From the IMG/VR virus record IMGVR_UViG_3300025030_000003, positions 1 to 64,000 of that record: DNA of 64,000 nucleotides, one strand, 5' to 3'. A model generated the notes under the pieces. That model was given only the letters and a program-made list of their open reading frames with translations, searched no databases and had not been told where the DNA came from. Of this stretch, positions 5,405 through 52,450 are shown piece by piece (positions within the stretch are counted from its first letter, which is position 1; each line of letters opens with the position of its first letter). Origin of the DNA: a virus. The position numbers and the translations under genes are program-made.

Positions 5405-5421
5405 CATTTAAAATATAAAAT
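5405..5421 (-). promoter_or_regulatory. Late-type promoter
   Basis: ATTTTATATTTTAAATG on the minus strand, immediately after the terminator at 5422-5447 and 17 bases before ATG 5388. Confidence 0.55.
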
Positions 5422-5447
5422 AAGACCCTCTTTAACTGGAGGGTCTT
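5422..5447 (-). terminator. Intrinsic terminator
   Basis: 9-bp stem AAGACCCTC/GAGGGTCTT followed on the minus strand by ATTTTATATTTT. Ends the transcript that starts near 5625. Confidence 0.75.
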
Positions 5448-5625
5448 ATTTAATTCGTATTATCTGGACTCTCCCAGAAGTATTAACCACTAAGGCAGGT
5501 TTCGCACTTTATTAAAATTACTAAAGATAGTATTCGGGTTGTGGGGTTTAGACACCCACGTAATCATAACTATCATCCTTTCAGGTAAACTATAACTCTT
5601 ATAATTCAAATAAAATATATGTATA
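5448..5625 (-). ncRNA. Candidate structured RNA or leader (alternatively a peptide of about 25 residues)
   Basis: This stretch of about 180 bases has its own promoter (5631-5659) and terminator, no long ORF, and is richer in G and C than its surroundings. It holds a hairpin GTGGG/CCCAC around 5541-5559. A short frame with a good ribosome site (CTGAAAGG) could encode MITWVSKPHNPNTIFSN... (25 residues). I cannot decide between a small RNA and a peptide mRNA. Confidence 0.4.
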
Positions 5626-10087: not shown

Positions 10088-10261
10088 TTAATCTAAACAA
10101 TTGGGATTAAAATCTCTAGGTATGATTAAATTGCAAGGTTTTATCATTCTTCTTTTAACAGCCCCACATTTTTTACAAGTTATTATAGGGTCTTCCATCA
10201 TACCATGAACAATTTCTTCCTCGGTTTCGCATTCGGGACACCAATAAGAATAAGTAGCCAT
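10088..10261 (-). CDS. FmdB-like zinc-ribbon protein, 57 residues
   Basis: MATYSYWCPECETEEEIVHGM... then CKKCGAVKRRMIKP. The aromatic-Y-x-CxxC start, second CxxC and conserved basic end resemble the FmdB/CxxC_CxxC_SSSS small regulatory-protein family. GAGGAG ribosome site; directly follows the membrane protein gene. Confidence 0.7.
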   Translation of the reverse strand: MATYSYWCPECETEEEIVHGMMEDPIITCKKCGAVKRRMIKPCNLIIPRDFNPNCLD

Positions 10262-10483
10262 TTATTTACTTCTCCTCTTTAAATAAAATAATTTTACTGT
10301 ATATAATAAGGTAGTTAAAGCATATATAACTAGGGGAGCATCAGACAATACCAGCACTAAGCATAAAATATTTAAAGTTGGGTCAATATTTAAGGTATAA
10401 ATAACAAAACTCCCTAACATAATGTTGGTAGAAACTGCTAACAAAATAATCAACAGTATAATAGATAAAATAAAACTTATCAT
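10262..10483 (-). CDS. Small membrane protein, two transmembrane segments
   Basis: 73 residues with hydrophobic stretches at about 3-30 and 36-62 and a basic end (KRRSK). Unknown role; part of a three-gene early unit. Confidence 0.7.
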   Translation of the reverse strand: MISFILSIILLIILLAVSTNIMLGSFVIYTLNIDPTLNILCLVLVLSDAPLVIYALTTLLYTVKLFYLKRRSK

Positions 10484-13615: not shown

Positions 13616-14692
13616 TTAAATTAGTTCATATAGCTTATTTTTTATAATGAAATCAGCTATTCCGTTATCTCTTCCCACATATAAATTCATAGCTAAAGAC
13701 ATCTTATTACCTAATTCTGAGGTGGCTTTTATAGCATAATCTTTTCTTTGTAAATTTTTATTAGTACTATAGAAATTATCTATCTCTTGAATCAGCTCAT
13801 TATATAAAACTACTAATTTTACTCTAAATTCTTCTAGGTACCTTAATAAATCTTTATCTTCTTTAAATAGTGGAAGAATATCATCTAGCCCATTGCCTAG
13901 AATAAGTTCAGATAAGTGTTTTTTATTAGAAACATTGTCCTTGCAACGATGTTTTTTAATGTAATCCAAGGTTTTGAATTTCATCCTTTGTCCATTATCA
14001 AAAACTATTACAAATCCTTCTCTACCAGAAGCAGTTTCTTGTAATTTAGCAACATCTTCTAAACTTATATTGTACTTTTTTACAATTTCAAAAGGACATT
14101 CCTTTAATTCATGTACGGAATGATATTCTCCTGTTAGCATATTTCTCAAAGCTAACAAAACCAATTTTTCTTCGGGATAGAATAAGACTATTTGGTTAGT
14201 AGGTGCTACATATTCTGCAAGAACCGTATATCCTTTATCTATCCAATCATTACAGAAATCTTTATAAAGATTATTATTATTTATTATTTCGGTGGCTCTG
14301 ATAGCTTGGTCGGAATAGGGGGTAGATTTAGTTTTAGCCAATAGTTTACCGTTTGGAAGTTTACCCACCATTATTAAGCTACCGTCTGTTTTTTCAGTGA
14401 TAGATGTGGGGGTCAATTGAGATACTAACAATTTATCCGTGAAAGGATTCTCTTCATAGTTGAAGAACTTTTCAAAAGGTCTAGCGAATATAGATAAATT
14501 TTCATGAGTATCTCTCATAAAAGATATGCCCCTACTTTCTAATGAACATTCAGACAGCCAATCACTGTAACTAGCTAATTTGTAAGAGAAAGTTTGTATA
14601 ATATACCCATCATATTCATGTTCTATTTTATAAAAAACTTCACTATGCTGAGTTAGTTTAGATAGATTCTCGTACAAAGTTAATATGTCCAT
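13616..14692 (-). CDS. rnlA: T4-type RNA ligase 1
   Basis: 358 residues, close to T4 Rnl1 (374). Start set at ATG 14692 (MDILTLYENLSKL) because AAGGAG lies 6 bases upstream; the frame is open further but lacks a site. Nucleotidyltransferase motif I is TEKTDGSLIM with the AMP-accepting lysine; other ligase features are AKTKSTPY, AEYVAP and EGFVIVF (motif IV), and MKFKTLDYIKKH (motif V). Joins 5'-phosphate and 3'-OH ends, typically to repair tRNAs cut by host anticodon nucleases. The 5' end overlaps the homing endonuclease gene by 35 bases. Confidence 0.92.
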   Translation of the reverse strand: MDILTLYENLSKLTQHSEVFYKIEHEYDGYIIQTFSYKLASYSDWLSECSLESRGISFMRDTHENLSIFARPFEKFFNYEENPFTDKLLVSQLTPTSITEKTDGSLIMVGKLPNGKLLAKTKSTPYSDQAIRATEIINNNNLYKDFCNDWIDKGYTVLAEYVAPTNQIVLFYPEEKLVLLALRNMLTGEYHSVHELKECPFEIVKKYNISLEDVAKLQETASGREGFVIVFDNGQRMKFKTLDYIKKHRCKDNVSNKKHLSELILGNGLDDILPLFKEDKDLLRYLEEFRVKLVVLYNELIQEIDNFYSTNKNLQRKDYAIKATSELGNKMSLAMNLYVGRDNGIADFIIKNKLYELI

Positions 14693-15425
14693 CAGTATCT
14701 CCTTCATTAAAATATTTCCACAAATAACCACCTGCTATTTTTCTTTTATTTTTACAAACCTGTCCTATGTTCTGTGCGGGGATGCCGTAAAATTTAGATG
14801 CTTCTGACATACTTTGAAATACTAAACCTGTTGTTACATTAATTACCCTTTTTCTATTAGGGTTGTTTTTACTAACTTTTATTTTCATTTCTTCGGTATG
14901 TTTATATCCTAGGCAATGTTTATTATTTTTTAAAGCTTCACTTAATTTTATTCTAGTTTCATCTTTGGTTATTCTAAGTTTTCTAGCATTCCTTAGTTTC
15001 ACTTTAGTTTCTTCAGTATGAGGAATACCTTTGTTACTAGCATTACGTCCCTTAAGTGCTTTACTTAAATTATTTTTATGCTCATCTGAGAATTCAATAC
15101 CTAAATTACTTTCAGCAATTCCTCTCTTATTATAACCGTATCTTGGATTGTTAGCTTTTAAACTATCTATCCAATATTGCTCTTTTTCCAACAATAAATT
15201 CTTTAATTGTTCCACATCTTTAGATAATACTATATATTCTAAAACCTCAAATATGAAATTATCTTTCCCGTATTTATTATAAGAACTTTGTAAATGTTTA
15301 TTATGATGTACTCCTCTTTTTAAGTTATCAAAATGTTGTTGTTTTCTACTTTTTAAGCGAGAGGAACTACCAATATAGTATTTACCAGTTACTGTATTAA
15401 TTATCTTATAAACACCTTGATTCAT
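14658..15425 (-). CDS. GIY-YIG homing endonuclease
   Basis: 255 residues. GIY-YIG core GVYKIINTVTGKYYIGSS at residues 4-21 and catalytic Arg/Glu region following, then NUMOD3-like repeats (GRNASNKGIPHTEETKVKL; LGYKHTEEMKIKVSK) and a C-terminal IENR1/NUMOD1 helix (VFQSMSEASKFYGIPAQNI). Free-standing SegA-like element. Its own early promoter lies inside the upstream gene and its 3' end runs 35 bases into rnlA, as expected for a later insertion. Confidence 0.93.
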   Translation of the reverse strand: MNQGVYKIINTVTGKYYIGSSSRLKSRKQQHFDNLKRGVHHNKHLQSSYNKYGKDNFIFEVLEYIVLSKDVEQLKNLLLEKEQYWIDSLKANNPRYGYNKRGIAESNLGIEFSDEHKNNLSKALKGRNASNKGIPHTEETKVKLRNARKLRITKDETRIKLSEALKNNKHCLGYKHTEEMKIKVSKNNPNRKRVINVTTGLVFQSMSEASKFYGIPAQNIGQVCKNKRKIAGGYLWKYFNEGDTDGHINFVRESI

Positions 15426-38985: not shown

Positions 38986-39368
38986 ATTTTAAATTTCTCC
39001 ACGAATTCCCATTCTTTGTCATTGAAAGCCGATATAACAGGGAGACCTTCATAATTAAAAAATAAAAAAGGATAGCTTTTATGACCTTTATCTAAATTTG
39101 GATTAGTGTTATTAAAAACGGTACACACTGCTCTCATGTGAGGAATCCAAAAGTCTCCCACGTATTTGTTATCTCCCTCTAATGTCTCTGCTAATTCCTT
39201 TCTAGTTGCATATTTCTTTTGTCCTTTTAGCTTAAACTTATTTTTAGTACTTCTTCTAACTGTTTCATTTTTAAGGAATTGCTCAAAAGTCATGCCTTCG
39301 TTTATTCCTTCTATTTGACAGCTATAAAAGGATTCTTTGAGAAGTAGTATCTCACGTAGATTCATCAT
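38982..39368 (-). CDS. 128-residue protein
   Basis: MMNLREILLLKESFYSCQIEG..., basic middle (RRSTKNKFKLKGQKKYATRK), no tail. Between the membrane protein and the tailed run. Confidence 0.68.
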   Translation of the reverse strand: MMNLREILLLKESFYSCQIEGINEGMTFEQFLKNETVRRSTKNKFKLKGQKKYATRKELAETLEGDNKYVGDFWIPHMRAVCTVFNNTNPNLDKGHKSYPFLFFNYEGLPVISAFNDKEWEFVEKFKI

Positions 39369-40456
39369 TAGTTATATCTCCCATATTCATTTGAAAATGC
39401 GTACATCCAATAACCTATTTGGGTTAGTAGAACTATTAAAAAAGTAACCATGTAAGCCCACGAAGGAGGGTCTATCTGCATGTAGTTAAACTTGCTGAAG
39501 TCTTTTATCTTATAATTTTCTATAACTTCCTGCTTAATTAATGGGATTATACTATCATCCACTTTATTATCCAATATAATAGACTCCAAATTTCTTTTCA
39601 CTAATGATTTTTCTGTCCATCCGAAAACATAAGACCATCTATTTCCTTCTATTCCCCCATAACAAATCACTAAGTCGTTCTTCTTACCCCCAATCCAAGC
39701 AGATTCTTGATACATAGCTTGTTCTTTATCTTTGTTTCCAAAGTAAATTATAATTAAGTTTACTTTTTTAGTAGCCCCAAGCTCAGTATTTAAAACATCC
39801 CAAGCATGTGGAGTTATAGTAGACACGTTGATAAGTCTATCACTTTGAAACCAATTATTATTTTGAGGATATTCAAGAGTCTTCATATTTTTAGGAATTT
39901 CTATAAAGGAAAAGTTAGATTTTGTTGCTTTTATTATATTTGTCCAACTTCTTGTCGTTGTGGTGGGGAAATAAACCTTACCTGTCTTATTGTAGGCAAC
40001 ATATATATTACGGTCTCCTCCGTCAAATCCAGATTTATTTCCATCTTCTGTATTATAATTTCCAAAAGTATTAGATATTTGTTTAAATGTAGTTTCTTCT
40101 ATATTATTACTTTCTCCCGTAGAAGAATTAGCTTCCCAATATCTATTATGGGTTCTATGTTCGGTAGTGTAGTAAGTAGTACAAACTTCGTTTTTACCGC
40201 TACCTGAACAGGATGTATGAGCTTCTTGATATTCTTCAATCCATTCGGGATAATAAGTGGCTCTTATTATATGTCCAGACCAAGTTTCTGTATCTGATGT
40301 CATTCCAGCGTATAAACATCCATGGATGATACCAACTGTTGCAAATCCTATTAGAACACTAAGTAACCACTCCCACCAAACTATCTCTTTTTGTGTTATC
40401 CATAAATAACATCCTATTATAAGAGGAATAAAACATATTAGATATAAATTTCCCAC
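39368..40456 (-). CDS. Membrane protein with large external TPM-like domain
   Basis: 362 residues. Two N-terminal membrane segments (about 3-20 and 27-52) and one near the C-terminus (about 332-352). The region between contains HTSCSGSGKNEVCTTYY and, from about residue 215, HAWDVLNTELGATKKVNLIII...WIGGKKNDLVICYGG, resembling the TPM fold of small envelope proteins and a phage membrane family I recall but cannot name. May alter the host envelope. First gene of the unit from 40487-40515. Confidence 0.72.
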   Translation of the reverse strand: MGNLYLICFIPLIIGCYLWITQKEIVWWEWLLSVLIGFATVGIIHGCLYAGMTSDTETWSGHIIRATYYPEWIEEYQEAHTSCSGSGKNEVCTTYYTTEHRTHNRYWEANSSTGESNNIEETTFKQISNTFGNYNTEDGNKSGFDGGDRNIYVAYNKTGKVYFPTTTTRSWTNIIKATKSNFSFIEIPKNMKTLEYPQNNNWFQSDRLINVSTITPHAWDVLNTELGATKKVNLIIIYFGNKDKEQAMYQESAWIGGKKNDLVICYGGIEGNRWSYVFGWTEKSLVKRNLESIILDNKVDDSIIPLIKQEVIENYKIKDFSKFNYMQIDPPSWAYMVTFLIVLLTQIGYWMYAFSNEYGRYN

Positions 40457-40486
40457 AATTATCTCCTTATTATGTGCAATAATATC

Positions 40487-40515
40487 ATATTAGCACACAA
40501 TTAATTAAATATCAA
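40487..40515 (-). promoter_or_regulatory. Early promoter
   Basis: TTGATA, 17-bp spacer, TGC-TAATAT. Confidence 0.5.
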
Positions 40516-40535
40516 CTATTTCGTTATAAAAATTT

Positions 40536-40569
40536 ACAAATAAAAAGAGTAGTCCAGCTCGACTACTCT
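40536..40569 (-). terminator. Intrinsic terminator of the candidate ncRNA
   Basis: 9-bp perfect stem, 6-base loop, T run on the minus strand. Confidence 0.8.
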
Positions 40570-40769
40570 CTAAATTAAAAGGAATCCCTCAGTCTAAGAT
40601 TCCTTTGGCTACAAATAGAGTACCCGTAGTCTGCCACACTACACGGAACCAGAGTATTTATAACAGCACGTAATTGACTGATGACGTACTGTTTTTATTT
40701 ACCTCCGAAACGCAACTTAGCTTTCGTGGATAGCTACTCCCTACTTGCTGGGAAGAATACGTCTCACAT
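40536..40769 (-). ncRNA. Candidate structured non-coding RNA, about 235 nt
   Basis: No ORF fits, and the stretch is clearly richer in G and C than the surrounding genes. It has its own promoter (40776-40804) and ends in a terminator (stem AGAGTAGTC/GACTACTCT at 40546-40569, then TTTTTATTTG). Inside are an 8-bp stem (40664-40671 with 40084-type partner at 40684-40691), a 9-bp stem AAAGGAATC/GATTCCTTT (40578-40606), CGAAA/TTTCG (40706-40726) and ACTAC/GTAGT near 40626-40642. No known RNA family recognised. Confidence 0.6.
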
Positions 40770-40775
40770 AATTTT

Positions 40776-40804
40776 ATTATATCACTACAGAGTAAATTTG
40801 TCAA
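40776..40804 (-). promoter_or_regulatory. Early promoter of the candidate ncRNA
   Basis: TTGACA, 17-bp spacer, TGA-TATAAT, close to consensus. Confidence 0.8.
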
Positions 40805-40814
40805 GAGATAAATA

Positions 40815-41231
40815 TTATCTAAGACTATGTTTAATATATAGGTTAAGTATCATTCCGCCCTTTTGAACTTGCTTAGGACTATTTCTGAAAGTTACGGAAT
40901 CCCAACTAACTTTATATTCTCCATCGACTCTCCAGAGGTCTCCCCCAACTAAATTATTATAGTTTAATTCAATGCCTTCAGATATTAATTTATCAATAAT
41001 GATAGAATGTAAAGCGGAGAAAGCATCCCAAACATATAAATCTTCTGTTTCTAAATCCACAAAGAATCTTAGAGCTTTAGGTCTTGAACTATTTTCTGGT
41101 TGAGCAGAATTTCTTATTAAGTGTTTAATATCAGATAAAGAAGGGTTTTTAAATACAGTAGCTTCCGACCATTTAGATTTAATAGTCGTTAAATACTCTT
41201 CTTTCAATATATTTAATATCTTACTAAACAT
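40815..41231 (-). CDS. Late-tagged protein, 138 residues
   Basis: N-terminal tag MFSKILNILKEEYLTT. Then RFFVDLETEDLYVWDAFSALH, a pattern I recall in phage proteins (F-V-x-D-x-x-T-G-x-V-Y-V-W-x-A). Last gene of the late cluster from 44905. Function unknown. Confidence 0.72.
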   Translation of the reverse strand: MFSKILNILKEEYLTTIKSKWSEATVFKNPSLSDIKHLIRNSAQPENSSRPKALRFFVDLETEDLYVWDAFSALHSIIIDKLISEGIELNYNNLVGGDLWRVDGEYKVSWDSVTFRNSPKQVQKGGMILNLYIKHSLR

Positions 41232-52370: not shown

Positions 52371-52450
52371 GCAATAAAAAAGTAGTTAAGTCTGTAGGGC
52401 AAACAGCTACATTTTTAACTACTATAAGAGAAAAGGCAAAAAATGTGTAT
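52371..52450 (-). ncRNA. Candidate small RNA, about 75 nt
   Basis: Transcript expected from the promoter at 52457-52484 to a terminator made by AGTAGTTAA/TTAACTACT (52381-52389, 52415-52423) with an inner TGTAG/CTACA helix and TTTTTT after it. No ORF. Short promoter-hairpin-terminator layout is typical of regulatory sRNA, but it could be a leader remnant. Confidence 0.55.

Follow-up and report, generated by a model that had tools for sequence, protein, structure and literature searches.

A predicted stand-alone non-coding RNA of about 230 nt in the genome of a 190-kb myovirus-like phage

Abundant non-coding RNAs (ncRNAs) are a frequent product of lytic phages, but few of them have defined boundaries. 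ncRNAs of unclear role have been described for the lytic phages phiKZ (PMC8545117) and ICP1 (PMC7567579) and for kayviruses (PMC7698491). Like these ncRNAs, including lncRNA1/2 of the kayviruses, the RNA described here sits in an ORF-free gap of a large phage of virulent type; its predicted size is about 230 nt, whereas the first phiKZ RNA measures about 100 nt, the ORF-less space in ICP1 about 1 kb and the kayvirus RNAs 525–570 nt. A comparison with phage records revealed no sequence similar to this predicted RNA. GOLLD and ROOL (PMC12286853) are likewise structured RNAs of phages and prophages; their lengths range from about 660 to over 800 nt and many are found close to tRNA islands, whereas the present RNA lies about 30 kb from the tRNA island of its phage and has no Rfam match. 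A possible way of working is offered by PreS of lambda and VpdS of VP882, small phage RNAs that act on the host, PreS demonstrating that a host gene can be the target of a phage sRNA (PMC12197685); PreS (about 88 nt) and VpdS (about 50 nt) are both Hfq-dependent base-pairing RNAs, whereas the RNA here has a predicted length of about 230 nt.

The window, i.e., the whole stretch of DNA that was analysed (64,000 nt), is the first 64 kb of the IMG/VR record IMGVR_UViG_3300025030_000003 (G000; 190,151 bases, 31.4% GC, majority of genes on the minus strand). The source is a 190-kb myovirus-like phage. Its genes, assigned by reading the sequence, include those of a tail-sheath-like, a RecA-like and a terminase-like protein, and the major capsid protein shares about 36% identity with its counterpart in Rhizobium phages of the RHph_TM group. 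The terminase-like protein (974 aa; record 165262–168186, minus strand) appeared on reading to carry an intein-like insert from CHGLGTKILMYDGS to VTHNTT. A permuted tmRNA (RF04321, 98 bits; record 71295–71496, minus strand) adjoins 14 tRNA genes (record 70063–71190, minus strand); a permuted tmRNA together with a phage is rarely mentioned in the literature searched. Among the 342 ORFs of G000 that reach 60 aa or more, 103 end in the motif [MLIV]-x-E-L followed by 0–4 residues (typically MxELV/T/I), and 7 have it 20 residues further in; the C-terminal motif was also found in 103 of 288 ORFs in the relative G001 and in 35 of 258 in G004; the codons for E-L vary, and the motif therefore looks like a protein-level tail common to about 100 mostly small proteins.

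The RNA locus is a 358-nt gap (40457–40814) between a 138-aa gene (40815–41231) and a 362-aa gene. The initial annotation had called this gap the longest gene-free stretch, which holds among the stretches without a plausible gene in the window, since the longer gaps of the 60-aa ORF list (14658–15425; 10088–10483) hold genes. The following features were located in and beside it:

40776–40804, minus strand: extended sigma-70-type promoter; −35 TTGACA (40804–40799), TG (40784–40783), −10 TATAAT (40781–40776); 12/12 match, 17-nt spacer ending in TGA.
40538–40769, minus strand: predicted non-coding RNA of about 230 nt; start at A 40769, end at about 40540–40538 (MFE, conservation, no ORF).
40544–40571, minus strand: intrinsic terminator; 11-pair stem, then UUUUUAUUU (U5-A-U3); −15.3 kcal/mol.
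40487–40515, minus strand: separate extended −10 promoter of the phrog_2087 gene (TTGATA-17-TAATAT with TG); 9/12 match, identical in G001.
39368–40456, minus strand: downstream gene, 362-aa protein, phrog_2087 (context only).

The promoter, annotated initially as near-consensus, matched the consensus in both hexamers and TG, and the terminator, annotated as strong, was recovered with its 11-pair stem and U-rich tail; both RNA ends are predictions derived from the positions of these two signals. About 20 similar extended −10 promoters were found across the 190-kb genome, mostly 15–50 nt 5' of ORFs, and the RNA promoter is of the usual type of this phage. Only three intergenic promoters of this type are followed by a strong terminator before any ORF (starts 40768/9, 5623 and 52449). 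Terminator-like sites in the 2.5-kb region numbered 2, against 0.6 expected. All three reading frames of the transcribed strand are interrupted, an ATG at the 5' end being directly followed by TGA, in agreement with the earlier statement that the transcribed strand holds no ORF; the difference in base composition that had been pointed out was likewise found (RNA 42% GC, phage genome 31.4%). As read, the locus has promoter and terminator signals of its own and a putative transcript free of ORFs, as is characteristic of a stand-alone phage ncRNA.

The two other promoter–RNA–terminator units of the window are observations in their own right. The first (5415–5623, minus strand; about 209 nt, z −3.2) shares 97% identity with its G001 counterpart, the core being almost unchanged, and gave no Rfam match above threshold; the second (52375–52449, minus strand; about 75 nt) holds no ORF and is 98.7% identical in G001. 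No paralogy between the RNA and the other RNA units of the phage was found by blastn.

The order of promoter, RNA, terminator and protein gene resembles that of ToxI of type III toxin–antitoxin systems, where tandem repeats lie upstream of a ToxN-like gene. Identity with ToxI was rejected: the RNA has no direct repeats, and the downstream 362-aa phrog_2087 protein gave no match to Pfam or to a toxin family. Homologues of phrog_2087 are present in T5-like, T4-like and Lak phages.

Folding of the RNA (40769–40540) gave an exceptional MFE of −71.2 kcal/mol (z −3.77), a value that none of 200 shuffles equalled; when 200 windows of 230 nt were drawn at random from the phage genome, none was as stable and two reached the z of the RNA, one of them overlapping the RNA itself. 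Without the terminator, z falls to about −2.5. The predicted parts are, from the 5' end:

40707–40765 (RNA 5–63), minus strand: 5' domain, predicted three-way junction of a closing helix and hairpins 40754–40737 and 40736–40718 (MFE, centroid, two-sequence consensus fold).
40701–40706, minus strand: GGAGGU, Shine-Dalgarno-like, without ATG, GTG or TTG at translation distance (sequence).
40687–40700 (RNA 70–83), minus strand: A-rich linker AAAUAAAAACAGUA, complementary at 13/14 positions to 40551–40538 (3' arm of the terminator plus U tail).
40662–40693 (RNA 77–108), minus strand: hairpin 4, 10 bp + 2 bp (MFE, centroid, pair probabilities).
40607–40650 (RNA 120–163), minus strand: hairpin 5 region, predicted, with alternative folds; holds the sole substitution between the copies.
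40578–40606 (RNA 164–192), minus strand: hairpin 6, 11 bp (MFE, centroid, pair probabilities).

The four or more stems described initially were thus predicted again; their basis is the folding energy, and pairing as such stays a prediction, since the near-identity of the two known copies leaves no covariation to be seen (one substitution, 0 informative pairs). Promoter, terminator and fold energy together support the earlier proposal of a stand-alone structured RNA gene. A 6S RNA was rejected, as at least five separate helices are predicted, not a single long hairpin interrupted by an open bubble at its centre, and there is no Rfam match.

A complementary pair like that of linker and U tail arose in 1 of 500 shuffles, in a post hoc test framed after the pair had been noticed, and its predicted pairing probability varies from 0 to about 0.5 with the 3' end of the RNA; the pairing is a lead, not a result. 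A new RNA family in which the 5' three-way junction is joined by a second domain, closed by pairing of A-tract and terminator U-tail into a stable decoy that targets either the ribosome or some host protein, is a further but distinctly unlikely reading.

One relative (G001; IMG/VR 3300025154_000049, 158,517 bases) was found with the phrog_2087 gene as bait. Its RNA is identical at 229 of 230 positions, the sole difference being U to A at 40613; in protein sequence the downstream neighbour is 92% and the upstream neighbour 52% identical, and the genes around the RNA agree at 63% of their fourfold-degenerate sites. At that fourfold rate, one difference or fewer in 230 sites has a binomial P of about 1e-45. 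Near-identity sets in at 40769, the predicted +1, and the first upstream mismatch is at 40770. The promoter spacer differs at 7 of its 17 positions and the 6-base interval from −10 to +1 at 2, with hexamers and TG intact. As the hexamers and TG are kept, the spacer has diverged and identity begins at +1, selection on promoter and transcript is indicated; the near-identity fits selection on the putative transcript, and the RNA, almost unchanged in the nearest relative, is therefore probably a working viral RNA.

Further copies were sought as follows. Rfam 15 gave no match to the RNA at gathering or lax E-value (best 17.6 bits, E 2.8), in keeping with the initial remark that it resembles no recognised family; blastn against INPHARED phages gave chance-level pieces only, and DNA pattern (exact-block) scans of IMG/VR viral contigs and GTDB genome contigs gave only G001 or chance matches, hits being examined with the covariance model, in sets that may omit records very near the window's own. 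The gene 40815–41231 as bait in viral contigs yielded no confirmed relative; the major capsid protein yielded six further records (G002–G007), those of G003, G004 and G006 with 74% identical capsid protein. By blastn the RNA is absent from all six (G005, 7.4 kb, by blastn only), and covariance model R1, whose helices after hairpin 4 are one column out of register and less sensitive there, did not find it in the contigs of G002, G003, G004, G006 and G007. A 39-nt R1 match in a Lachnospiraceae genome was rejected, lying inside a protein gene. Since scans and more distant relatives gave no further copy, the RNA looks lineage-specific, with two known copies; its absence from phages with 74% identical capsid protein indicates that it is not a core function. 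A separate observation was made in G004 (contig L031, 18242–18360), where a terminator-like hairpin stands no more than about 100 nt after a consensus promoter, with no evident ORF; this is perhaps another small RNA, unrelated in sequence.

The locus is read here as a stand-alone ncRNA gene whose folded product would act in trans on a protein or RNP of the host and not by antisense to phage genes; this full reading is tentative, with a probability of roughly 0.45. Host-type sigma-70 RNA polymerase would initiate at about 40769 from the consensus extended −10 promoter, and transcription would end at the intrinsic terminator near 40540 to give a stable RNA of about 230 nt, which may fold into the 5' three-way junction, the A-rich linker and a series of hairpins and, during infection, act in trans on its host partner as decoy or modulator. 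At least two similar promoter–RNA–terminator units elsewhere in the phage were counted for a stand-alone RNA, and among trans modes a folded decoy or modulator is preferred over a base-pairing sRNA. Two specific decoys found no support: a CsrA-type sponge, as the GGA motifs lie in stems, the linker or the terminator stem of the predicted fold and not in hairpin loops, and an anti-SD decoy acting through GGAGGU, as its duplex (−10.8 kcal/mol) is equalled by 13% of shuffles.

In the alternative of a trans-acting sRNA that works by base pairing, its single-stranded loops or linkers would pair with host mRNAs in Hfq/ProQ style and redirect the host. Promoter, size and a U-rich tail after the terminator hairpin are usual for such RNAs, and lambda PreS and VP882 VpdS are phage examples (PMC12197685); however, the best antisense matches to the phage's own translation starts lay within the spread of shuffled controls, and the A-rich linker may partly sequester the U tail. 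This mode of action is rather unlikely.

The RNA could also be the cis-acting 5' leader of phrog_2087, its terminator serving as an attenuator that a ligand or protein turns off. A terminator-opening fold, in which GACUAC (RNA 139–144) pairs with GUAGUC of the terminator, lies only 2.5 kcal/mol above the best one, but 13% of shuffles have an equally close alternative. The identity with G001 extends 65 nt past the terminator toward the start codon, across the promoter-like site of the next gene, which counts for a leader and against the stand-alone reading; phrog_2087 has this promoter of its own after the terminator, however, and so does not need the RNA as a leader. Upstream of the phrog_2087 homologue the annotated gaps are only 21 nt in PX29 and 152 nt in pVp-1, and a leader is on balance unlikely.

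A recently exchanged or passively conserved spacer, made near-identical by recombination and giving at most a transcript without function, has to be weighed since recent exchange could mimic selection: about 8% of the genes common to G000 and G001 have identical fourfold sites, a sign of mosaic exchange, and there are other identical blocks between the genomes, these genes included. Intergenic DNA is 92% identical between the two, coding DNA 86%, and in 4% of 230-nt windows the similarity equals or exceeds that of the RNA. Against this stand the onset of identity exactly at the predicted +1, the diverged promoter that has kept its functional elements alone and a fold far better than that of shuffled sequence, which make such a spacer improbable. 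That the RNA is a short mRNA, its peptide beginning at an unusual start codon behind GGAGGU (40706–40701), is highly improbable, for although this is a strong Shine-Dalgarno sequence, no ATG, GTG or TTG stands at usable spacing, every frame is interrupted and 13% of shuffles pair with the anti-SD equally well.

The RNA gene is real, well delimited and probably functional, and its role, that of a folded trans-acting RNA, is inferred. Most likely the RNA is a new family of a kind already known, the phage-encoded stand-alone ncRNA; at present it is a well-defined candidate rather than a surprise. Its promoter, start and terminator are clear and a second, near-identical copy is known, which leaves little guesswork in expressing it, probing it or using it as bait. 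If the RNA acts on a host factor, it would be a new tool of phage takeover.
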